Shown here: positions 6,250 to 33,653 of the stretch, piece by piece
How positions within the stretch are numbered: the first letter of the stretch is position 1
Layout of the letters: each line of letters opens with the position of its first letter
Source of the DNA: Cliona cf. orientalis
Taxonomy: Eukaryota; Porifera; Demospongiae; Clionaida; Clionaidae
NCBI GenBank assembly: GCA_963930775.1
Contig: OZ005691.1
Span: 806,001 to 870,000, forward strand
Direction: 5' to 3'
DNA length: 64,000 bases
Notes under the pieces: model-generated
What the model was told of the DNA's origin: nothing
Database searches by the model: none
What the model saw: the letters and a program-made list of their open reading frames with translations, nothing else
Made by a program: the position numbers and the translations under genes

Positions 6250-7140
6250 TACCGACTGGATTGTTTGGAATTTCTACTGGTGCACATTGTTAGTAGATTG
6301 AGGCAAGTTCTTTTGCATGACTTTATTGTCTATTTACTGGTACATATGGTGCATGGTGCTGGCTTAAGACTCTTGTCCACCGATTTGTTGTGCTTCTACT
6401 GGTGCATGGTGCTAGCTTGAGGCCTTTCCACTGAATCTTGGTATGCTTATACTCTGGTGCATATGGTGTTGGCTTGTGTGTGTGTGTGATGTGTGTTTGG
6501 AGCACAGCTTTAGAGTTTGTGTGTGTACTAACTCACCTTCACTGGATTAGGCTCATATTACTTTGTGTATGCTAATGTTAAATATATCCATTGAGTTTAT
6601 CACGTATATATATTTTTTATTCAGAGATTTTTGGGAGTTGCTATCTACTGGTTGTTGGTGTAGCCTCTTGTGTCTCCAGCCTGAGACGAGCCTTGGTCAA
6701 CTGCTTTGTCCTCCACTCTTGTTGGGATCGCTGCCCCTGCATTAACGGTATGTGGAGCCGTCGGATGTTGGTGGTGTGAACAACTAGGGTGTAGCGTGAT
6801 GCACTTGACCATGGCCCGTCAATGGATTGTGATGAACTGCTGTTCTCCTCTCTTGCACATGACTTTGACTCAACTTTACTAGATTATATTGTATGCATGC
6901 ATATTTTTAATTTATGGATTTTTCTGCGCTGCGCTTCATCTAGGCCCCTTAATAATCAAATTTTCCCTGCGTTGATCTTCAACACGCAAAGACTTAGTTT
7001 AATATGGGAGGATATGGGGATATTTTTGTGAGACTAGTGAGATAGACACAAACAAGCTTAATAGGCATGACAAAAGTAACTGTTCAGCGTAGTGTCTGTG
7101 TCATGCTCTCGCCTACAAATCTGTGGAGACTATAGAAACT
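6250..7140. other. intergenic, diverged short repeats
   Basis: Between about 6270 and 6480 a motif containing ACTGGTGCA...GGTGC...GGCTT recurs several times as diverged units. No supported gene. Confidence 0.45.
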
Positions 7141-7172
7141 GTGGTCCTAGGTTCGAGCCCAGCACGGGGGGT
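7077..7172 (+). repeat. possible tRNA-derived SINE remnant
   Basis: GGTTCGAGCCC at about 7149-7159 matches the RNA polymerase III B-box consensus, and the upstream CTCTCGCCTACAAATCTGTGG resembles the 5' part of tRNA-derived SINEs. I cannot fold a full cloverleaf, so this is not called a tRNA gene. Confidence 0.3.
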
Positions 7173-7211
7173 TTGGGGGGCCAAAGCATGGGGGGCGCAT
7201 AAGTATGGTTC

Positions 7212-7669
7212 TGCGCATAAGTATTGGGTCGAGCAATAAGTATTGGGTCGAGCAATAAGTATTGGGTCGAGCAATAAGTATTGGGTCGAGCAATAAGTAT
7301 TGGGTCGAGCAATAAGTATTGGGTCGAGCAATAAGTATTGGGTCGAGCAATAAGTATTGGGTCGAGCAATAAGTATTGGGTCGAGCAATAAGTATTGGGT
7401 CGAGCAATAAGTATTGGGTCGAGCAATAAGTATTGGGTCGAGCAATAAGTATTGGGTCGAGCAATAAGTATTGGGTCGAGCAATAAGTATTGGGTCGAGC
7501 AATAAGTATTGGGTCGAGCAATAAGTATTGGGTCGAGCAATAAGTATTGGGTCGAGCAATAAGTATTGGGTCGAGCAATAAGTATTGGGTCGAGCAATAA
7601 GTATTGGGTCGAGCAATAAGTATTGGGTCGAGCAATAAGTATTGGGTCGAGCAATAAGTATTGGGTCGA
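7212..7669 (+). repeat. 19-bp satellite array
   Basis: About 24 head-to-tail copies of GCAATAAGTATTGGGTCGA with almost no variation. The first copy lacks one A. The array runs directly into the GGGTTC/GGGTTT array; the junction (GGGTCGAGTTCGGGTTCGGG) suggests the hexamer could have arisen from the GGGTC end of the 19-mer. Confidence 0.95.
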
Positions 7670-9521
7670 GTTCGGGTTCGGGTTCGGGTTCGGGTTCGGG
7701 TTCGGGTTCGGGTTCGGGTTCGGTTTGGGTTCGGTTCGGTTTGGGTTTGGGTTTGGGTTTGGGTTTGGGTTTGGGTTCGGGTTGGGTTCGGGTTCGGGTT
7801 CGGGTTTGGGTTCGGGTTTGGGTTTGGGTTTGGGTTCGGGTTCGGTTCGGGTTCGGGTTTGGGTTTGGGTTTGGGTTTGGGTTTGGGTTCGGGTTTGGGT
7901 TTGGGTTTGGGTTCGGTTTGGGTTTGGGTTTGGGTTTGGGTTTGGGTTTGGGTTTGGGTTTGGGTTTGGGTTTGGGTTCGGGTTCGGTTTGGGTTTCGGG
8001 TTCGGGTTTGGGTTTGGGTTTGGGTTTGGGTTTGGGTTTGGGTTTGGGTTTGGGTTTGGGTTTGGGTTTGGGTTTGGGTTTGGGTTTGGGTTTGGGTTTG
8101 GGTTTGGGTTTGGGTTTGGGTTTGGGTTTGGGTTTGGGTTTGGGTTTGGGTTTGGGTTTGGGTTTGGGTTTGGGTTTGGGTTTGGGTTTGGGTTTGGGTT
8201 TGGGTTTGGGTTTGGGTTTGGGTTTGGGTTTGGGTTTGGGTTTGGGTTTGGGTTTGGGTTTGGGTTTGGGTTTGGGTTTGGGTTTGGGTTTGGGTTTGGG
8301 TTTGGGTTTGGGTTTGGGTTTGGGTTTGGGTTTGGGTTTGGGTTTGGGTTTGGGTTTGGGTTTGGGTTTGGGTTTGGGTTTGGGTTTGGGTTTGGGTTTG
8401 GGTTTGGGTTTGGGTTTGGGTTTGGGTTTGGGTTTGGGTTTGGGTTTGGGTTTGGGTTTGGGTTTGGGTTTGGGTTTGGGTTTGGGTTTGGGTTTGGGTT
8501 TGGGTTTGGGTTTGGGTTTGGGTTTGGGTTTGGGTTTGGGTTTGGGTTTGGGTTTGGGTTTGGGTTTGGGTTTGGGTTTGGGTTTGGGTTTGGGTTTGGG
8601 TTTGGGTTTGGGTTTGGGTTTGGGTTTGGGTTTGGGTTTGGGTTTGGGTTTGGGTTTGGGTTTGGGTTTGGGTTTGGGTTTGGGTTTGGGTTTGGGTTTG
8701 GGTTTGGGTTTGGGTTTGGGTTTGGGTTTGGGTTTGGGTTTGGGTTTGGGTTTGGGTTTGGGTTTGGGTTTGGGTTTGGGTTTGGGTTTGGGTTTGGGTT
8801 TGGGTTTGGGTTTGGGTTTGGGTTTGGGTTTGGGTTTGGGTTTGGGTTTGGGTTTGGGTTTGGGTTTGGGTTTGGGTTTGGGTTTGGGTTTGGGTTTGGG
8901 TTTGGGTTTGGGTTTGGGTTTGGGTTTGGGTTTGGGTTTGGGTTTGGGTTTGGGTTTGGGTTTGGGTTTGGGTTTGGGTTTGGGTTTGGGTTTGGGTTTG
9001 GGTTTGGGTTTGGGTTTGGGTTTGGGTTTGGGTTTGGGTTTGGGTTTGGGTTTGGGTTGGGTTTGGGTTTGGGTTTGGGTTTGGGTTTGGGTTTGGGTTT
9101 GGGTTTGGGTTTGGGTTTGGGTTTGGGTTTGGGTTTGGGTTTGGGTTTGGGTTTGGGTTTGGGTTTGGGTTTGGGTTTGGGTTTGGGTTTGGGTTTGGGT
9201 TTGGGTTTGGGTTGGGTTTGGGTTTGGGTTTGGGTTTGGGTTTGGGTTTGGGTTTGGGTTTGGGTTTGGGTTTGGGTTTGGGTTTGGGTTTGGGTTTGGG
9301 TTTGGGTTTGGAGTCCACATTGGGTTGGGTTTGGGTTTGGGTTTGGGTTTGGGTTTGGGTTTGGGTTGGGTTTGGGTTTGGGTTGGTTGGGTTTGGGTTG
9401 TGTTTGGGTTTGGGGTTTGGGTTTGGGTTTGGGTTTGGGTTTGGGTTTGGGTTTGGGTTTGGGTTCGGTTTGGGTTTGGGTTTGGGTTTGGGTTTGGGTT
9501 TGGGTTTGGGTTTGGGTTTGG
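7670..9521 (+). repeat. (GGGTTT)n / (GGGTTC)n hexamer array, G-quadruplex prone
   Basis: About 1.85 kb of hexamers. The first about 330 bp mix GGGTTC with GGGTTT and short units; from about 7999 to 9300 the array is nearly pure GGGTTT with two single-base phase slips (about 9055 and 9212). An interruption GGAGTCCACATTGGG lies at about 9308-9326, followed by less regular units. The G-rich strand is the plus strand, with four or more G-tracts every 24 bp. The array ends at an assembly gap, so its true length is unknown. Huge open frames in all frames are artefacts of the 6-bp period. Confidence 0.95.
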
Positions 9522-9721
9522 NNNNNNNNNNNNNNNNNNNNNNNNNNNNNNNNNNNNNNNNNNNNNNNNNNNNNNNNNNNNNNNNNNNNNNNNNNNNNNN
9601 NNNNNNNNNNNNNNNNNNNNNNNNNNNNNNNNNNNNNNNNNNNNNNNNNNNNNNNNNNNNNNNNNNNNNNNNNNNNNNNNNNNNNNNNNNNNNNNNNNNN
9701 NNNNNNNNNNNNNNNNNNNNN
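9522..9721. other. assembly gap (200 N)
   Basis: Exactly 200 unknown bases, which looks like a fixed-size placeholder. It lies between the hexamer array and the TAF4 coding sequence, so 5' exons of TAF4 may be missing or misplaced. Confidence 1.
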
Positions 9722-12700
9722 AAGCAGCCGAGAAGCAACAGCAACAACAACAACAGCAGCAGCAGAAAGACACCGCTTCCGTTGCACCGCAGCAACTCCA
9801 TCAAGCAAAACCCCTCACAGTTTCCAACAAAGTCACCGCTTTACCTTTATCATCCACTACCACTGTCCCTACCCCTAGTCCTAGTCCGGCTCTAATTCAG
9901 ACAGGCCAGAGTGGTGGTAGCACAGTCGTAGCGAAGCCTCTGTCCACGGTAACTGCTTCAGCTCTGGCTCCTGCCCCCACTGCAGTCAAATTGCAAGTCA
10001 CTAAAGGAGGAGGGGGAGGGAGTGTGGCTCTAGCAGCAGGGTCATCGTCGTCGACAACGGCTACTCCAGGGGCCACCCCTAATGCCAAGAACCCTATAAT
10101 TATCCCACCAACGAGTAGCACGTCTTCTGCGATAGTGGTGGGTGCGGTTGGTGGTGGTGTTGCTGGTAGTCAGATCCCTCCCAGTATACAGCAACAGCTA
10201 ACGGCAGTTTTCAACAGTCCAGCTTTCAAACAACAGATCATCAACCATTTTCCAAAAGACGTGCGCGATCAGGTGGCCAAATTGCCACTCGAGCAGCAGA
10301 AGTTCATATATACACACCACTTGCGTCAACTCCAGCACCTAAAACAGCAAGCTCAGCAACAGAACAGCTCCACAGCGGCAGGCACGAGCAAAAACCAAAC
10401 TTCATCGAATAAGACAGCTTCTTCGTCTTCTGGTAGTGGAGTGCCTATGTTTCCACCTAATTCCGCAGCAGCTACGGTCGTGGCTACTCCTCAGGTGGTC
10501 CTAGAGAAGCAAAAACAGTTGATAAAACAGCAACAGGGGGGAGGACCGTTTGTCATCGGAGCAGGAGCAGGCTCCAAGGGGGGAGGAGCTGCCGCGTCTT
10601 TCGTCATCGGTAAGAGTGGTCTCGGTGGAGCATTGCAATTGACAGGGGCATCCTCATCGTCATCGGCCGCTGGAAAGGTTGGGGGACTGTCGAGTGCAGC
10701 GTCTATAGGGACGGGGAAGACAAGCTTTGCAAATTTAAAGCTTGGAGGTGCGGCAGCAGTGGGACAAGGGGTCACGGCCGGAGAGACCATTGGGACTGCG
10801 GGTTCTTCAGGAGGTCCTGGAGCATTGTCTAATGCTTCTCCGAGAAAGAAGGATAGGAGTAAAGGGTCAAGGCACAAGGATGGCACTGCTGGAGATGAGT
10901 GAGTGGATTTTTATACTACTATATAACAGATAATTTTTGCGAGTTTCATACACTTTATGTTATTCATTTTCCCAAACCATCACATAACCAAAAATCTAGC
11001 CTCCTTTCTCCTATAATGATTATGTTGTTTTTTTTAGTGAGGAGGATGAAGTTGTTGGAATGGATATCCTGGACGAAGTCGGCGTCAACCTACAGGTGGG
11101 TGGAGCCGTACATAATAATATTATAATCTGCAGTCACATGACTACCTAACATGATCACATGACTCATTCATTATCTCACATGATTACATACTTACATACA
11201 TACAGGAGGAAACTGCTCACTTTCTGCCAAGCTCAGTTGGTGAGACCACTCAGAGGATTTACAAAGACGAGGTTTTCTTGAATAATCCACTGCTACGACA
11301 AAGAGTCACTACTATTAGTAAGTTCAGTGGCCCATTTCATCTTAAATCTGGAGAAAAATTTGTAAAATAAAATAATTGTATATAGTTGATGGACGTATTA
11401 ATCTCATACCCATTCTCCATTCCCATTCCAGTGCGTCGGTATGGACTGACTGATGTTAGCGATGAGTTTCTTGTTCTCCTGTCTCACGCCACCCAGGAGA
11501 GGATGAAAGGAGTGGTAGAGAAACTAACTCAGATCAGTCAGCACCGACTCAACGTGCTAAAGGTCATTACGAACACTCACCCTAGCCTCGTACCCAGGCC
11601 ACTCCCACATTTTCAATATTACCTTTTTCTGTGTGTAACACTGAAAATGTGGGGGTATATATGAGGCTAACACTCACCCGATTTAATAGCCTCAGAATAC
11701 ACTTTTCATTCAATATAAAATTGTACACTGCAGGATAGCGACAAGTACACAGTGTCTTCCGAGACGCGTAGCCAGCTCAGAGTGTTGGAGACCATCGACA
11801 GAGTGGTGAGCAAGAGGAAGCAGGAGAGAGAGAACGAACAGACGCTGAGGGCTGCCAAGAGCAGGTCAAAGGGCACTGATCCTGAGAAGGTTGCCAAGAT
11901 ACGCGAAGAAGCAAAACAGGTATGTGTTGTATAATGTGCTATTTTGTCAAGTCACTAGAACAATATCTAAAAACATCAAAGGATATTATTTACAGATTTA
12001 AAGCCACATCAAACGTAAAAAGGGCTTTTTAAGAGCAGCACTATGCCACTCTACTGCTCTTTAGTGGCTTCTTTATTATATTTTTGTGAATGGACAGCAG
12101 TTTCAGAAATTTCATGTGATGTGTTTAATTAAAATTCTGTAGTCCACCCCCTAACCTTTGCAACATTGTACAATCATACATTTTGATGAAGTTCATGGCT
12201 ATATACTTCTCGTTCATTTTAGATTCAGCAAGACAAGGCTGCCCAGCTACTCAATGCTGCAGCTAACCAGACGGCACTTGCTGCCATTGGACAGCGGAAG
12301 AGACCGCTGTCGGATGTGGGAGGAGCTTCGGGGTCCTCTCAGTCTGGGGGCAGCTCAGATGGCTCCTCTAGCGCAGCCTCTCTCTTTGCATCTCTGGTGA
12401 GTCACAATTTTGAGTCACAGTAGGTGATGGGATGGATTATAAAGAGTTTGCTACCGTACTTAATCTATGCAAAAAATAATTTCAATTTTGAAGACGCGCG
12501 CTTTTCTGGTAAAGGTCGTCAATCGCTCCATATATACACATTATGAGAATTTGTAAAACACTTAGTTTAGATTGGATCATATGTTGTATTCAATTAACTA
12601 TGGTATACATGGTTGCTCTACCATTACTTTATCCAGCTTATAAATCCTATCTGCAATGTACTTGTACACGGTTGCTTCTACCATCCTTTATCCAGCTTAC

Positions 12701-22057: not shown

Positions 22058-25000
22058 TTACATGTACACGCCTGTCATATTAGCAGCTGTGGCGAGAGCT
22101 TCTCTTCCAACTTCACTGATATGGTTGCCATAGAGACTGTGAGAGGAAATTCCATAAGGACACAATGTCACGACATTATACCTTTTAATTATTATTGATT
22201 CGAGCTGGTATGCAAATGAAACTCACTATAACTCCTGAAGACCCTTTAGTGTCTTGATGGCCTCAGAAATGGCCACAGCTCCCTCTGCGCCAATAGAGTT
22301 GTAGCTGAGGCTATAATAATATTACATGCGTGAAGGAACAATGACCACTATTGACCATACATACGAGTAATAGTAACTGTTACGTTCAATCTTACTCGAG
22401 CAAGTGAAGATGTGGTGTTGATTTTACTCCATCAGCAATGAACACAGCTCCACTATCACCAATAGAATTATACGGTAAGCTATATAATAATATCATACAA
22501 AGGTCAATATTACACAATCATACTAACATGTTCTAGTGTATTGACTTACTAAAGTTTTTGAAGGTTAGTCATGGTCTTCATAGCTTCTGAAACCACCATA
22601 GCACCTTCGTTGCTGATAGAGTTATCATAGAGGCTATACAGGAGGGGGATATTATAACATAAGCACAGTCGATTTTATGATTATGCCTGATACCTCAAAA
22701 TCTGTAGATTGTAAAATTTATCCTGTCTAAATAGATTCTTGCACTGAGCTACACCAATGGAGCAAACTGAGAGATCAACTTCAAAATCTTTACAATAAGT
22801 CAGAAAGTAGCCAAGAGCGCTGCAATCGATTTGAGTGAGGTGGACCTCACAGAAATTTAGTCTTGATTTGAGTACATCTGCAACTAGGTCGCACAGAAGT
22901 GGGTCTTGTGCTTCGAAGAGGCAGTGTATTAAAGAAAGGAGAAGGGCCTTATCTTCGAGCTTTGGATGTCTCACTGCACATTTCTCTGCAACCTGGAACA
23001 CGACCTCTTTTATCCCATAATTCCGTAGCTTAGTCTTAGCAGCAAAGAATTGAAAGACAGCGCTGAATCGTGGATGGCCGAGGAGCATTTTGAATTTCTC
23101 CGTCTGTTCTCGGGCATCTAATTTGGTTGCCATGTAGATAGCAGCAAGTAACTCCTGGACTGATAAGTGAAGGAAATTGTACAAGTGAGATTTCCCTCCG
23201 ATAGTAAAGCTTTCCACCTCCTGAAGCAGACCAAGGGTACTAAAATCAGAAGGTAGATCGAAGATGACCTTATCTTCCACAATGCCATTGTAGGCAACTT
23301 CACAGAGCTGCTGAAATGGGCCTCCAACTTCTGGCGGAAGCTCGTCCAAGGATTTCAGTTCTTCTACGTTTTCTTGGCAGTGTGTCTTCATGAGATGACG
23401 AAGAATGCAGTTGCACGTAAGCTCTGTAAAGATGCCGTACTGTGTTGTAGGTAGCACGTTGCCGCCGCATTTGAATAAGTGTACAAGGATGCTGGCATTC
23501 AGTGGGAGGTAACAGCTTCCCTCCAGTACTGAGTTCTCGGTCATCCTTTGCAAGAGATTCTCGGCGGCCATTGCATCATCTTGCAGGCATGCAGTGAAAT
23601 AGTGTCGAAGTTCATCCTTGGTAAACCCCAGAATCTCAGTTCGAGAGGACACCAGTGGGTGGAGACTTGTAGATGATGTCGGTCGAGAGGTGACGATGAT
23701 GGAGCTCTCGGGGAGTAGGGTCCCTCCGAGGAGGCTTAAAATGACGGAATGGCCGGGCACATCCTGAGGTAGCTCGTCCCAGCCGTCCAAAACGAATAGA
23801 ACGCTTCTTCCGTCAACGGCTGCTATCTCTTCTGCCATGTCCTGCCCCATCTTTTCATTTCTTCGCGGCAGTAGTTCAGCGATGCTTGTAGCATTCTTAA
23901 TGTTTGAATCACACAGCCTCACGAGTATGATCAGCTTGTATTCTTGAAACAGCTGCTCGTCAGCCCACTCATGGCAGATGTGGAGAGAAAGGGTGCTCTT
24001 TCCACTTCCTGCCACACCCTCGATCAGCACCTTTTTCTGTTGGTCTAGGTCTCTCTCTTCAATTCTCACGAAAATATCTTTAAGTTTGATGGGAACCTTG
24101 CATTTGAGAATGTTATCTACCCTCCCAGTTATTGTCTTCTGGCGTATCACGTCACCTTCATCGTACCCTCTCCGAACCGGCTCCTTCGTTTGGATCATTG
24201 CTAGCCGAAAGATCTTGTGCGTGACTGGAGGGGGCCATTGATCGTCAGGGGAGGTGGCTAGGGTCCTAGCCTTGTATAAAGACCTCAGGTACTTCAAGTA
24301 GTTATCCCATTTGGAGTCGGTCACTGAATGCACAGAGAGAATATACACTTGTAGTAAACGCGGTTACGTGATCCTTGAAGAAAAATTAATATCAGGGAGA
24401 TAATAATTATGTAGCTACCTTATAGCACTATTAATGGCCTTGTTTCCAGGCCCTATATTTCTATAGCTATACAATTATCATTTAAAGATTAAGGAGCCTG
24501 GAGACGACTTTCTATCACTTTAATCGTTTAAGCAATGTTACATAGCATAAGGTACCTTGAATTGAAGATGCCCCTTCCGTCAGATATTTAGATTGGAGCA
24601 CTCTGGCCATTTTGCTTCGGGTGGGTTTAGGGTTGATTCCACGCAGCCACTTCACTATCAATTGTACCAGCTGATCTTCCACTCTGCTGTGGTTTTTATC
24701 GATGGCCTCAAGCGTGCCCGAGTCAATTCCAAGTTCCACCCCGATTAATTTCCAACTGGCACGATAGTCCCAGAACATGTCAAGTACTTCCCTCAAATTG
24801 TCATTTTTTAGGACATTGTCTGTACACAAGTATATAGCTATAGTAACAGTCTATGAAGACTTACTTAGAATCTTAAAATTGCATAATATGCATACATGCA
24901 GTTTCGCATACACTAGACAGACATGTTCGAGCATGACCTACAATCTATTAATTTTAATAACCACGTATCTTTAAAAAATTCACCTTTAGGATGATTTAAA

Positions 25001-25576
25001 GCAATTTTCTTGGCCAACTCATGGTCATTTCCACCAGCGTGCTTGTCCACAGCCTCTGCCAGCATTCTCCAGGTAGGAGGGCCAAATCTCTCAACGTTGT
25101 ATTTTTGTCGAAGCCATAACAGGACTACATCATTGAGCGCTCTTTCAGTATTACTGTGATCAGATTCTTTGCCTGCACCAGTGCTAGTGCCGGTGGAGCC
25201 ACAGGCTTCAGAGACAGCCCTAAGGTCGTCAGGTCGTAGCCGTAGCGATCGACCAAGAGAGAAGTACACCGACTTGATGGAAACTATCTCCTCTATGATG
25301 TCAGCTAAATCATCTTCTCCTGTAAAAAAAGATTGCCATCACTACTTTAACGCTCCTAATTGCGTGCATGGTATATACTTCAGTGAACAGTGCGCACCTA
25401 ATACTTGAGTTGCATTGATACTGTCATAGTCGAGATCTGCAAGTTATTATTAGAAATTGGACTCAATCATAACGGTAGTATAAAATATTATTAATGATTT
25501 TCATACCTCTAGGTCCAGGATTCTCCTCAATGTCTCCAGACAACAGTAGCAAGTACAAGATAACAGTAGCTTCCAT
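22058..25576 (-). CDS. NLR-type immune receptor with N-terminal 2A leader: 2A-Death-Death-NACHT-LRR
   Basis: Nine exons on the minus strand join in frame: 25576-25507, 25436-25398, 25319-24984, 24819-24556, 24323-22694, 22633-22550, 22479-22396, 22310-22227 and 22136-22058; about 889 aa. Residues 1-22 read MEATVILYLLLLSGDIEENP then GP: a hydrophobic leader ending in the 2A consensus D(V/I)ExNPGP, with the skip expected between Gly21 and Pro22. Two Death-like helical domains follow in exon 3 (about 38-148, e.g. TWRMLAEAVDKH) and exon 4 (about 149-236, e.g. WKLIGVELGIDSGTLEAIDK). NACHT has Walker A GVAGSGKST (about 339-347) and Walker B VLFVLDGWDEL (about 411-421). Three 84-bp exons each encode one 28-aa LRR with the same intron phase, followed by a 25-aa end repeat. 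Family role: cytosolic sensing with nucleotide-dependent oligomerisation. The last exon may instead splice 4 bp earlier to a tiny exon with nearly the same end. Confidence 0.9.
25507..25576 (-). other. 2A-like ribosome-skipping leader exon
   Basis: This first exon of the NLR gene encodes little else than the leader: Met, a hydrophobic run (VILYLLLL) and SGDIEENPGP, then Arg and a splice donor. All eight positions of the D-I-E-x-N-P-G-P consensus are met. It is in frame with the Death domains. Confidence 0.88.
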
Positions 25577-25845
25577 GAAGGAGCACATAAGCTTATTTAA
25601 TATAATGAATTCGATAATGGTATAGCTCTGGAATGGATCTCGGCGTACATACGTACCGACACGTAGCGAATTCGCGAATAAGATTCATCGTGTTGACGTA
25701 AACCTATTTAGGATCCCGTGACTCCATTACCATGTGACCTTTCAGCGATTATTATCATAATATTAAATGACCTGGACCAGACATCACAGCGTGCAAAGTC
25801 CAGGTACAGTTCACTGATCATCTCAGATCCTAAGCTGGAAAAATC
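25577..25845. promoter_or_regulatory. 269-bp divergent promoter between the NLR gene and paralogue 4
   Basis: The two start codons face away from each other across 269 bp. No TATA box is plain. A shared bidirectional promoter is inferred from spacing only. Confidence 0.5.
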
Positions 25846-27027
25846 ATGGCGATTCTGTACGGCTGGCAGAGGAAGCTGAGCCTTCTCCCTCTCAGTCTTG
25901 TCGTAGTGGGCTGGGTGGTGTTCTCTGTTGGTTTCATATGGACCCTAGCTGACTGGCCAAAGGAAGACGAATCCAAGTTCCAGCCTTACCTTCCTCGAAC
26001 CAGCCCCGTGCTCTTCTCCCTATATCTCATTCTAGTCGGTGGACCATTTGTCTACTTCCTAGGAGTGGCACAGGCAATCCTACCCGGAATAGCGAGCTCC
26101 ATCGTTGGAATATTCACCGCCTTTGTGGGCAGCGTGTATATTGTGTGTGCAGGTTCTCAAGCGTATAGTGGAGCCCTCTACATTAAGGAGATTCTCGAGA
26201 TCAACGCACGTGATGGGGTAAAGTTATCTCTTGACACTAAAGAAGTACTGATGTTTGCTGGCGCTGCGTTTATCACTATCTGTTGGTGCTTCGTGCTTAT
26301 GCTCATGGTCTCCTACGAGAACCGACCAACGAGGAACCACGGCAACTATCAGTATGACATTTTCAATCCGCCACAGGGTGCCATTGAAAGTCCACACCGT
26401 AGACAAAAGTGTCGTGCTCCGTTCACCCCCGGAGTGGCGAGGGGTCTCAGTGTACCCTTCATCATCCTCTCTCTCGTGGGATGGGGTGTGTTTACGGCGG
26501 GTATTGAGAAATTGGAATTGGACGATGACGAGCCATTTCTCAGTGGATACTTGATCGAGTCTCCACTCGCTACCTACGGCGCTATCACTGTTGGCCCCCT
26601 GCTGTATTTGGCTGCGTTGCTACACGCTGGCTGCTGGGGTGGAGCCAGTACTGTAATGGGCGTATTTTCTTCCATACTTGGTACAGTCTACACAGTGTTC
26701 ATCGGATTCATTGTGGTTGCTTATGGTAAAGGATTCTACACCGTCTGTCAGCTCGAAGGAACCAAGCCGAATTGCTCAATCGATCACTCGTATCTAGGTG
26801 CCAATTTGATCCTTGTCTTTGCTGGTGGAGTAGGTAGCCTCTTTCTCTGGAGTTTCGTGCTAATGCTGCGTCCATTTTACCGCAACCATGTGCAGGGAGG
26901 CCCTGGGGATAATATCATAAACTCCTCCTCCCCGCCCCCCACTACGTATGGAACTTTGAGAATGGAAGAGAGCTTTAATAATTCTTATTCTTCTCAGCCC
27001 CTCATTGCTGAGAGTGGGAAACGCTGA
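25846..27027 (+). CDS. 8-TM duplicated-module membrane protein, subfamily A (paralogue 4)
   Basis: Single-exon, 393 aa, the clearest example of the internal duplication. Membrane segments at about 12-35, 55-79, 81-107, 133-155, 199-220, 243-263, 266-294 and 319-341. Half 1 aligns with half 2 segment by segment: VGWVVFSVGF with VGWGVFTAGI, VGGPFVYFLGVAQA with VGPLLYLAALLHAG, SSIVGIFTAFVGSVYIVCAG with STVMGVFSSILGTVYTVFIG, VLMFAGAAFITICWCFVLML with LILVFAGGVGSLFLWSFVLM. The 4-5 loop (RPTRNHG...RRQKCR) is basic, so cytoplasmic. Outer loop 7-8 has Cys301 and Cys310 (the latter in NCS). The tail has SPPPTTYGTLRM and ends PLIAESGKR. Head to head with the NLR gene. A decayed copy lies at 31979-33653. 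Function unknown. Confidence 0.88.
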   Translation: MAILYGWQRKLSLLPLSLVVVGWVVFSVGFIWTLADWPKEDESKFQPYLPRTSPVLFSLYLILVGGPFVYFLGVAQAILPGIASSIVGIFTAFVGSVYIVCAGSQAYSGALYIKEILEINARDGVKLSLDTKEVLMFAGAAFITICWCFVLMLMVSYENRPTRNHGNYQYDIFNPPQGAIESPHRRQKCRAPFTPGVARGLSVPFIILSLVGWGVFTAGIEKLELDDDEPFLSGYLIESPLATYGAITVGPLLYLAALLHAGCWGGASTVMGVFSSILGTVYTVFIGFIVVAYGKGFYTVCQLEGTKPNCSIDHSYLGANLILVFAGGVGSLFLWSFVLMLRPFYRNHVQGGPGDNIINSSSPPPTTYGTLRMEESFNNSYSSQPLIAESGKR

Positions 27028-28769: not shown

Positions 28770-29912
28770 ATGAAGTTATTCGACACAGTCCCCAAGAAGC
28801 TGGCAATTTCAGCCTTTGTCTTATTTGCAGTTGGTTGGATCGTGTTCATTGTTGGATTTGGCCTGCTGTTAAACGAGTTGGTGACTGAGTCGGACACAGT
28901 CACTCTTTTGAATTCCTTATACGTGCCTTACTATTTCACCTTGGCTGGCGGACCGTTTGTGATCGCATTTGGACTCATCCACGCTGCACTGCCTTCAAAC
29001 CTAGCTGGTGCCATTATTGGAGCTATCTCTACCATCTTAAACAACATTTACTTCGTACTCGTTGGTTTTGTAGTCTCATATGGTCATTTCCTCATCCAGC
29101 GGCAGCTTATAGTAACTAACTTCAATCTAATGTTTGCTGGAGCGATACTTCTTGCAGTGAGTTGGAGCTTTTCGCAGATACTTCTTGTCTTCTTCAATAA
29201 ATCGTCACAGACACAAAGAAAGAATTTGTGGGTTCTAATCAAGGATATATTTACCGGAAATCATGAAGGTCAGCATCAATTGACTCGTACTAGTACTGCG
29301 GCGATACGCCTATTAAGCATCCCAACTATTGCTTTCTCTTTCATTGGATGGGGTGTGTACTTGGGTGGAATGCACAACATCCTTCAGGCATTGACAACTG
29401 GTGGAAATACCAATTTCATACCTCTCTTCAACCATTTTCCATCCTGGGGCTCAGTTACCATTACACCTTTTGGGTTCTTGGTTGCTCTGCTTCAAGCTGT
29501 AACCTCAGGAAGTGAAACTGTCCTTGGAAGTCTTTTGTCCATCTTAAATTCATTCATTATAGTCTGTGTCGGTTATGTAGTGACGATCATAGGGATAATT
29601 TTTGTAGTACAGGGCGATCTTGGATCAGACCCGCTTGATAATCAGTATATATACAACCTTATATTTGGTGGAGGTATCGTCTTTCTTTTTTTCTGGACTG
29701 CCACGCTGACACTGTCAAGATTTTACGACGCTGTGCACTCCATCTGGGCCACAGACAATACTAGCAATCAGTTACAGGCCTCGAGATCTGCTCCTTCTGG
29801 ATCCGTGCAACACAACGCAAGTGCATTTAATAATTCAGCTATTTCGCAGTCTGAGTTTCAGATGACTGCAGCAGCAGAGCCACCACCAGCCTATGACTAC
29901 AAGCAGCCGTAA
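28770..29912 (+). CDS. 8-TM duplicated-module membrane protein, subfamily B (paralogue 5)
   Basis: Single-exon, 380 aa. Starts MKLFDTVPKKLAISAFVLF; subfamily B has the (K/R)xFD(T/S)(V/I)xKKLAI start instead of YGWQRKLALLP. Eight membrane segments in two similar sets of four: FVLFAVGWIVFIVGFGLLL with IAFSFIGWGVYLGG, and LAGAIIGAISTILNNIYFVL with ETVLGSLLSILNSFIIVCVG. The cytoplasmic 4-5 loop has an NLW motif shared with the other B genes. Loop 7-8 has no Cys pair, unlike subfamily A. The tail ends EPPPAYDYKQP, which contains a PPxY motif (PPAY), the binding site for WW domains such as those of NEDD4-type ubiquitin ligases. The start is supported by an identical ATG context in 36974 and 35156. 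Function unknown. Confidence 0.88.
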   Translation: MKLFDTVPKKLAISAFVLFAVGWIVFIVGFGLLLNELVTESDTVTLLNSLYVPYYFTLAGGPFVIAFGLIHAALPSNLAGAIIGAISTILNNIYFVLVGFVVSYGHFLIQRQLIVTNFNLMFAGAILLAVSWSFSQILLVFFNKSSQTQRKNLWVLIKDIFTGNHEGQHQLTRTSTAAIRLLSIPTIAFSFIGWGVYLGGMHNILQALTTGGNTNFIPLFNHFPSWGSVTITPFGFLVALLQAVTSGSETVLGSLLSILNSFIIVCVGYVVTIIGIIFVVQGDLGSDPLDNQYIYNLIFGGGIVFLFFWTATLTLSRFYDAVHSIWATDNTSNQLQASRSAPSGSVQHNASAFNNSAISQSEFQMTAAAEPPPAYDYKQP

Positions 29913-31978: not shown

Positions 31979-33653
31979 ATGTGCAGGTTTTCATGCGTGA
32001 CTCTCAAGATCAACGCACATGATGGGGCAATAAAGTTGTCTCTTGACACTAAAAAAAGTACTGCTGTTTGCTGGCGCTGCGTTTATCACTGTCTGTTGGT
32101 GCTTCGTGCTTATGCTCATGGTCTCCTACAAGAACCAACCAACGAGGAACCATGGCAACTTTATCAGTATGACATTTTCAATCTGCCACAGGGTGCCATT
32201 GAAAGTCCACACCGTAGACAAAATTAGTGTCATGCTCCGTTCACCCCCGGAGTAGCGAGAGGACTGAGTAGCTATACCGTTTATCCTCCTCTCTCTTGCA
32301 GGATGGGGTGTGTTCATGGCGGGTGTTGAGAAATTGGAATTGGACAATGACGAGCAATTTCTCAATGGATCCTTTAACGAGTCTCCACTCCGGCGCTACC
32401 TACGGCGCTATCACTGTTGGCCCCCTGCTGTATTTGGCTGCCTTGCTGCACGCTGGCTGTTGGGGTGGAGCCAATACTAGGGACACACGTGAGTGCAGGA
32501 ATTTCCTCGCTCAGCGCACAATTACAAGCCAATAATTGGTACTTGGTTAGGATGCGGTGAGGATAGTTGCACCACACCCCCCAAGGTAAGTAGGCTATGG
32601 ATAGGCTATATATAGGATCTAGGACGCGACGAGCGCTGGGTGGGGCTAGCCTCGTGCTTGGCACGTGCCAAGGCACGAGGCTCTAGCTAGCTAGCTAGGG
32701 TGGGGCAAGGTTACCTCAATACGAGCCAGACGGTGCTAAAATCCTTGCGTTCTGTAGATCTATTTGACCGTCTCTGGCGAGGCGCTAGTTAAGACTAGGA
32801 GTCTGAAAGTTTAGTATTGGATAGGTACCGGCTTTAGACACCTCCTATGTTTGTGAAGGAGCTGACAAAGGGACTACAGGATATGTGCAAAAAAGTCCAC
32901 GGACGCAACATTACGCCCACACAGTAAGTCCAATTTTTAGCTAGGTTGTCAGTTTGACATGTTCAAAGAGTGTGCCGATTGTCAGCCAATCTGTGAGTAG
33001 TAATGAAGTTGGGGTCACAACTGTGACAGTGGAGTGCGAGCTTTAAGGGAGGCGCACAATTTTTCAAATGGGGCACATACACTTAGGCAAGACGAAGCAT
33101 TGCACGGCTTTGTGACACTCGGTAGCAGGTTAGCAATCTGATCAACGGTTGATAAACTGCAAAGGCTGGCCTATGATGCTCTAGAGGCCGAGAGCGAGAT
33201 TTTCGAAATTCGGGAAACCATGCAAGTGTCACCAGGACCCGAGTGGGAACCTCGCTTCGCTCGGAACTATAATGGGCGTATTTTCTTCCATACTCGGTAC
33301 GGTCCACACTGTGTTTATCGGATTCATTGTGGTTGCTTTTGGTGGAGGCTTCTAGCCGTTATAAAGTCTGTCAGCCCGAAGGAACCAAGCCGAATTGCTC
33401 AAATCAATCACTCGTATCTAGGTGCCGATTTGATCTACATCTTTGCCGGTGGAGTAGGTCTATAGCCTCTTTCTCTGGAGTTTCGAGCTAATGCTGCGGC
33501 CATTTTACCGCAACCATGTGCAGGGAGGCCCCGGGGATAATAATATCATAAACTCCTCCTCCCCGCCCCCCACTATACGTATGGAACTTTGAGAATGGAA
33601 GAAAGCTTTAATAATTCTTATTCTTCTCAGCCCCTCATTGCTGCATGAGAGTG
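31979..33653 (+). pseudogene. decayed copy of the subfamily A paralogue at 25846
   Basis: Matches the 25846 gene from its codon about 105 onward (AAGATCAACGCACATGATGGGG, GTTTGCTGGCGCTGCGTTTATCAC). Small indels at 32030-32060, 32160 and 32225 and stops break the frame. About 790 bp are inserted between about 32477 and 33267, where the parent reads GGAGCCAGTACTGTAATGGGCG without interruption. The match then resumes through the loop 7-8 and tail codons to about 33653. The first third of the gene is missing and replaced by rearranged DNA, part of it inverted relative to 27270-27420. Confidence 0.85.
32477..33267. mobile_element. insertion inside the 31979 pseudogene
   Basis: Extra DNA relative to the uninterrupted parent gene at about 26643-26657. 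The flanks show a possible short duplication (ACTA near both borders). I see no transposase or clear inverted ends. Weak palindromic blocks occur (GCCTCGTGCTTGGCACGTGCCAAGGCACGAGGC at about 32650). Confidence 0.55.

Follow-up and report, generated by a model that had tools for sequence, protein, structure and literature searches.

The closest described counterpart of the gene reported here is sea urchin SpNLR2A (Roulston et al. 2016, PMC4981915), in which, according to the available sections of that paper, a 26-residue hydrophobic leader ending in the StopGo/2A motif D(V/I)ExNPGP precedes Death, NACHT and LRR domains. The principle of a 2A leader on an NLR is therefore already known from sea urchin, where the same sections give the 26-residue form for 14 of 87 NCBI NLR entries and, elsewhere, 2A-like sequences for approximately 35% (85/241). 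A second reference point is viral StopGo/2A with a leucine-rich upstream segment. The available sections of PMC12846837 describe Leu at position 7 (p7) as wedging between rRNA bases, and report that L7A lowers F2A activity to 34%, that N16A or D12A abolishes it, and that LLLLSG-like sequences form one of the four major groups of viral upstream hexapeptides. Retrotransposons bearing a 2A likewise place D(V/I)ExNPGP after an L-rich stretch, and such elements are present in the genome studied here (locus L013). For sponges, a search of titles and abstracts, whose coverage did not extend to the sponge NLR survey of Yuen et al. 2014, returned no paper on 2A sequences in NLRs, and we do not claim their absence from print. 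The available text of a study of NLRs in a sponge genome (PMC12909245) contains none of the terms 'signal peptide', 'NPGP', 'skipping' or 'recoding', and in PMC5890393 '2a-like' and 'nlr' are present only within a gene description and the references.

The window analyzed here is a 64,000-nucleotide stretch of the Cliona cf. orientalis genome (contig OZ005691.1, positions 806,001 to 870,000). Its minus strand carries an NLR gene that we describe by a six-exon spliced model, in which all splice sites are AG/GT and the phases are consistent:

25507..25588, minus strand: exon 1, hydrophobic leader and 2A, MCSFMEATVILYLLLLSGDIEENPGPR(G) (sequence; spliced model)
after the exon end at 25507, minus strand: exon 1 donor GTATGAAA (GTATGA), phase 1 (spliced model)
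25535..25552, minus strand: hexapeptide LLLLSG, directly before the octapeptide, with p7 Leu and p11 Gly
25511..25534, minus strand: StopGo octapeptide DIEENPGP (D-I-E-E-N-P-G-P) (match to the strict genome-wide pattern)
25516-25514 (Gly) / 25513-25511 (Pro), minus strand: predicted unmade bond, within the octapeptide
24984..25319, minus strand: exon 2, first Death-like domain (profile comparison)
24556..24819, minus strand: exon 3, second Death domain (PF00531, E 5.8e-5, above the cut-off)
22694..24323, minus strand: exon 4, NACHT and the beginning of the LRR region (PF05729, E 2.6e-26)
22396..22479, minus strand: exon 5, LRR, 84 nt, phase 2 (LRR_6 on the spliced tail; model)
22062..22136, minus strand: exon 6, LRR, 75 nt, donor GTAAGT (spliced model)

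The first-pass annotation had described an exon 1 leader ending in a full match to D(V/I)ExNPGP, and the octapeptide at minus-strand 25534-25511 confirms this. It had started the leader at 25576, where there is indeed an in-frame ATG; this is the second one, however, with an earlier ATG at 25588, and the choice between them gives 22 or 26 residues, respectively, to the final Pro. Translation from the first in-frame ATG (25588-25507), a start codon assigned from the sequence alone, yields MCSFMEATVILYLLLLSGDIEENPGP and makes the 2A the extreme N-terminal element of an NLR. Both the octapeptide and the upstream context of StopGo/2A (p7 Leu, p11 Gly, L-rich) are present, and the upstream hexapeptide is exactly LLLLSG.

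The proposed in-frame splice to two Death domains, NACHT and LRRs held up for the phases, the exon 3 Death domain, the NACHT domain and the LRRs, but exon 2 is only Death-like by profile. Exon 2 has no Pfam match; it aligns with the exon-3-type Death profile at an hhalign probability of 97.7 and matches FADD weakly (E 0.016). Its AlphaFold model is of low confidence (mean pLDDT 58.7), and the 16 matches that Foldseek gave for this model (E up to 10) include no Death domain and nothing with E ≤ 0.001. The LRR exons were located by reading short open segments, with an LRR_6 match on the spliced tail (Pfam, E 7.7e-7), and the GTAAGT donor of exon 6 suggests at least one additional 3' exon; the gene may also have one more exon at its 5' end.

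A scan of the genome (216.8 Mb in 149 contigs) with a degenerate nucleotide version of D(V/I)ExNPGP found 152 strict sites (86 forward, 66 reverse; 105 with Val and 47 with Ile at the V/I position). The reversed pattern, used as a control, gave no match across the same genome, and occurrence of the motif by chance is excluded. When Gly was required at p11 and p19 was left free, the count was again 152 with an unchanged strand split; the positions listed for this search, the first 100 of 152, look identical to those of the strict search. Every strict motif among the listed or fetched sites has Gly at p11, and no GD(V/I)ExNPG among them lacks the final Pro; for the remaining sites the equal counts suggest the same. 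Gly in place of Asp at p12, which is as prevalent as Asp in the viral set (PMC12846837, available sections), occurs here at one site genome-wide. Leaving p16 free gave 161 matches, 9 more than the strict pattern, and eight of these are among the matches listed: five His, two Asp and one Ile, the last resembling transposon copies on contig C1. The ninth falls outside the matches listed and is taken to be the His variant read in locus L123.

We fetched 122 of the 152 strict sites; the other 30 comprise 25 in clusters on contigs C13 and C18 and five outside the matches listed. Twenty of the 122 were set aside by eye as transposon-type, only L041 and L013 having been scanned downstream with Pfam, which leaves 102 sites, the window's own included, a few of which could also be transposons (e.g. 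L100 and L101). Two residues outside the strict search pattern are conserved among the fetched sites. Gly at p11 is found at 122/122, hence at all 102 non-transposon sites, and Leu at p7 at 99 of those 102; by leader cluster, p11 Gly is present throughout in 24/24 and p7 Leu in every member of 21/24. These conserved residues match the tunnel-contacting positions of 2A, across leaders that are unrelated to each other.

Two kinds of 2A-bearing element were noted. One is a repeated element on contig C1 (18.0-35.5 Mb; L034, L035, L037-L045, L047-L049) in which a membrane-rich open frame is joined to a DIEVNPGP (once DIELNPGP) 2A; the distal half of this 37.5-Mb contig holds all 14 copies fetched, and one of them, L041, has helix-turn-helix matches downstream (Pfam). 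In the other kind (L013, L046, L080, L103, L110 and L115) the 2A is followed by a cysteine-rich, PHD-like stretch, as judged by eye, and the PHD and endonuclease domains found by Pfam in L013 mark it as a non-LTR retrotransposon type.

Downstream of the non-transposon sites, a Death exon is the recurrent partner. Two Death HMMs, with seeds from 13 of the loci, matched downstream of 62 of the 102 sites (the 13 seeds included), and gave no match in antisense, upstream or shuffled sequence. Forty sites had no Death match, in a set where 58 of the 102 had just 0.48-0.85 kb of downstream sequence. The transposon-type sites differ from the receptor 2As in this respect, with no Death match downstream at any of the 20. 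The best-scoring donor after NPGP is in phase 1 at 97 of the 102 sites, and the best acceptor ahead of the Death exon is in phase 1 in 55 of 62; since these phases agree, leader exon and Death exon form a pair able to splice in frame.

The annotation had also proposed looking for the motif in the first exons of other NLR genes of this genome. With the window's NACHT exon as the query, 78 of 499 candidates were scored, giving 104 rows, from which we dropped 29 partial pieces and four second NACHT copies in the same open frame, so that 71 were used. Among the 33 NACHT exons scoring at least 500 bits to the window (its own included), 24 have the strict motif upstream on the same strand, at a distance of 0.9-8.3 kb, compared with 4 of the 38 below 500 bits; across all 71 the motif is on the wrong side for three and on the opposite strand for none. 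Seven of the nine close NACHT exons that lack the strict motif have an N16H or N16D variant upstream (coordinates matched by eye), which brings the total to 31/33, to be set against the sea urchin shares given above; the remaining two, at C1:1614584 and C19:2758405, have neither the strict motif nor an N16H/D variant upstream. A Pfam NACHT search, in which 103 of 490 candidates were scored, found a same-strand 2A within 15 kb upstream at 12 of the 103 places, on the wrong side at two and on the opposite strand at none.

Five of the six sites with His at p16 lie upstream of a NACHT exon. The seven N16-variant leaders fetched (five His, two Asp), some of them partial, are nearly identical over their last ~20 residues, have a GT in phase 1 after the motif, and as a set show a Ka/Ks of 0.60. 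The available sections of PMC12846837 report more than 95% activity for p16=His in its native context and contain no data that we met on p16=Asp. A different partner is found at L024, where a Death domain (Pfam) lies downstream of the 2A, and at the adjoining L125 on the same strand, which encodes a TRADD-like N domain and ankyrin repeats. From their order and strand, the two are probably one Death-TRADD-N-ankyrin gene, and the leader-2A module thus seems to stand ahead of at least two receptor architectures.

The leaders themselves look like real proteins. Whole-alignment Ka/Ks is 0.40 for a type of ~85 residues (24 sequences), 0.43 (n = 9), 0.39 (3), 0.41 (3), 0.51 (4) and 0.32 (3, near saturation) for the long leader families, and 0.28 for the short DIESNPGP-type leaders (n = 11). 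In that order, the values without the octapeptide and the preceding 20 codons are 0.51, 0.46, 0.43, 0.36, 0.55, 0.36 and 0.60. The codons more than 20 before the octapeptide therefore give 0.36-0.55 in six leader groups, and the 0.60 of the short type refers to its first 8 aligned codons. In the 20 codons alone the values are 0.28, 0.29, no differences, 1.38, 0.53, 0.15 and 0.23, where the 1.38 belongs to family B2 (three sequences) and indicates no constraint there. The low Ka/Ks of the octapeptide is biased, as the sites were found by that very motif. In two of the 24 sequences of the ~85-residue type (L004 and L064) the first Met is not conserved.

The long leaders, of 140-243 residues, have in common an N-terminal motif around D-V-x-x-A-R and at least one membrane-like stretch. 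Every copy runs into a 2A, 13/13 in one search and 24/24 in another (by eye, with pieces joined), in which 10 more matches covered the last 33 residues only; one copy in the 13-copy search has a TGA, and one in the 24-copy search a TAG, inside the leader. The leaders of L015 and L016 match no Pfam family at E 0.1, and the predicted model of the long leader family is of low confidence (pLDDT 58.0) and consists of helices only. The window leader aligns by eye with only the last part of the ~85-residue type, and for this reason looks like a shortened member. Genome-wide, the pattern resembles a first-exon module of phase 1 that is reused before many Death-domain receptors. In the ~85-residue leader of L088, the hydrophobic stretch DVALSVAASVILSLLL is tandemly repeated, which produces a longer membrane-like part directly before the 2A. 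In L095 and L111 a long frame with many charged residues lies upstream; it includes a membrane-like stretch ahead of the 2A and gives no Pfam match above the cut-off.

These features set the sponge genes apart from SpNLR2A in several ways: close relatives have conserved leaders of ~85 or 140-243 residues, the 2A is closely followed by a donor in phase 1, a Death-TRADD-N-ankyrin gene has a 2A in front of it as well, and some motifs are N16H/D variants. With viral L-rich StopGo/2A they share the octapeptide, p7 Leu, p11 Gly, an LLLLSG-like hexapeptide and the p16=His variant (PMC12846837, available sections), but they are cellular genes, in which the 2A would part a leader from a receptor and not viral proteins. 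As far as we have seen, the new elements are the scale, an exon arrangement in phase 1, leaders that are long and resemble membrane proteins, a partner of Death-TRADD-N-ankyrin type and the occurrence of p16 variants outside viruses, in cellular genes.

The best explanation for exon 1 is, in our estimate with a probability of about 0.8, a working StopGo/2A leader that releases the Death receptor; that StopGo as such is functional in the window gene appears very likely. Recurrence across the genome, the in-frame exon pairing and the conserved tunnel-contact residues that were not searched for strongly support the 2A reading of the first-pass annotation. Skipping itself, how efficient it would be and where each product would end up are inferred. 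The ribosome would synthesize the 25-residue leader, and the nascent chain would clamp in the exit tunnel. No bond would form between Gly and Pro of NPG/P, after which translation would resume. The main product would be a free receptor, starting P-R-G-E-D-D right at the Death domains, continuing through NACHT and LRRs, and presumably cytosolic. A minority of unskipped chains would retain the hydrophobic leader and could reach a membrane; a physiological role for this form is at present a tentative proposal. FMDV 2A needs more than 30 native residues for full activity (PMC12846837, available sections), and the window leader, at 26 residues, falls below this, a point against full activity. Roulston et al., however, estimated ~80% recoding for the 26-residue sea urchin NLR leader, of which a non-skippable form localizes mainly to the Golgi (PMC4981915, available sections), and the window's 26-residue leader could behave alike.

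Two further proposals are compatible with StopGo release and concern what the leader is for. It is possible, though somewhat less probable than the opposite, that the 26-residue leader doubles as 2A and signal sequence, as in sea urchin, and that the unskipped fraction is sent purposely to the ER or surface. The sea urchin leaders are equal in length (26 residues) and position, 12 of 14 of them are predicted signal sequences (PMC4981915, available sections), and the Golgi localization cited above was that of one such leader with skipping abolished. The window leader has a VILYLLLL core, and the Kyte-Doolittle mean of its own 18 residues, 1.73, exceeds the mean of both groups of sites. Over the 20 residues before the motif, however, the 102 non-transposon sites average 1.31 (sd 0.65) and the 20 transposon-type sites 1.33 (sd 0.32), so that hydrophobicity is no evidence of targeting: the tract is explicable by the 2A itself, and the annotation's argument that the leader is 'hydrophobic enough' fails to tell signal sequences apart from ordinary 2As. 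By eye, the leader has no small residue at -3 before Ser-Gly, making a cleavable signal unlikely. The paralogues, moreover, have different kinds of leader, and since close ones carry conserved leaders of ~85 or ~200 residues with membrane-like stretches, the proposed identity with the sea urchin logic proved too narrow. A slightly weaker candidate is that one mRNA yields two proteins, a small membrane-protein leader with a job of its own and a Death receptor, the window gene being a shortened form. The conserved long relatives with their common N-terminal motif and membrane-like stretches, the unbroken run of long-leader copies into a 2A in both searches, leader Ka/Ks values well under 1 and the alignment of the window leader to the end of the ~85-residue leaders argue for this; the window's mere 25 residues upstream of the skipped bond, the missing Pfam family of L015 and L016, the low-confidence model and the two copies with internal stops argue against.

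The alternatives that dispense with recoding fare much worse. A plain signal peptide or membrane anchor, with an NPGP that is coincidental or otherwise employed, would account for a hydrophobic N-terminal tract, but would require neither the motif nor p7 and p11, both conserved across unrelated leaders, and sits poorly with 152 motifs whose number is unchanged when p19 is free and p11 fixed; we regard it as highly improbable. At least as improbable is that a mobile-element 2A was spliced in as functionless debris. Elements bearing a 2A do occur in the same genome, as the PHD and endonuclease domains of L013 and the helix-turn-helix of L041 attest, yet the leaders are under purifying selection, belong to several unrelated families and pair recurrently with Death exons, near which none of the 20 transposon-type sites is found.

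Engagement of the translocon by some signal-bearing upstream chains inhibits 2A in cells (PMC2978324, available sections), which suggests that the genes with long leaders may be sensitive to secretory-pathway status. By this analogy, we offer as an improbable but specific idea that the leader-2A module is a secretory-pathway sensor, an innate guard of membrane targeting whose decision is made inside the ribosome. Normal docking of a long membrane leader would suppress skipping, so that the receptor stays anchored in the ER or the plasma membrane; with the translocon blocked or under stress, skipping would proceed and free a cytosolic Death receptor. The window's 26-residue leader would not yet have left the tunnel at the moment of decision and would then be a constitutive, uncoupled form.

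One animal genome holds about 100 fetched, host-looking sites, 62 of 102 near a downstream Death exon, and their leaders, though unrelated, converge on tunnel-contacting residues. If active, they would be, to our knowledge, the largest natural collection of StopGo sites in cellular genes, would include p16=His variants of cellular origin, and would pose a testable question, namely why an immune receptor should be produced fused to a membrane leader from which it can separate.

Elsewhere in the window, two intronless frames with many membrane-like stretches (25846-27027 and 28770-29912, both plus strand) are divergent from the NLR gene and apparently paralogous; the former has no Pfam match, and a broken copy lies near 31990-33500. 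On the minus strand, 7116-9840 is a low-complexity tandem repeat without stops in any of the three minus frames; it contains a run of N and a second repeat unit.
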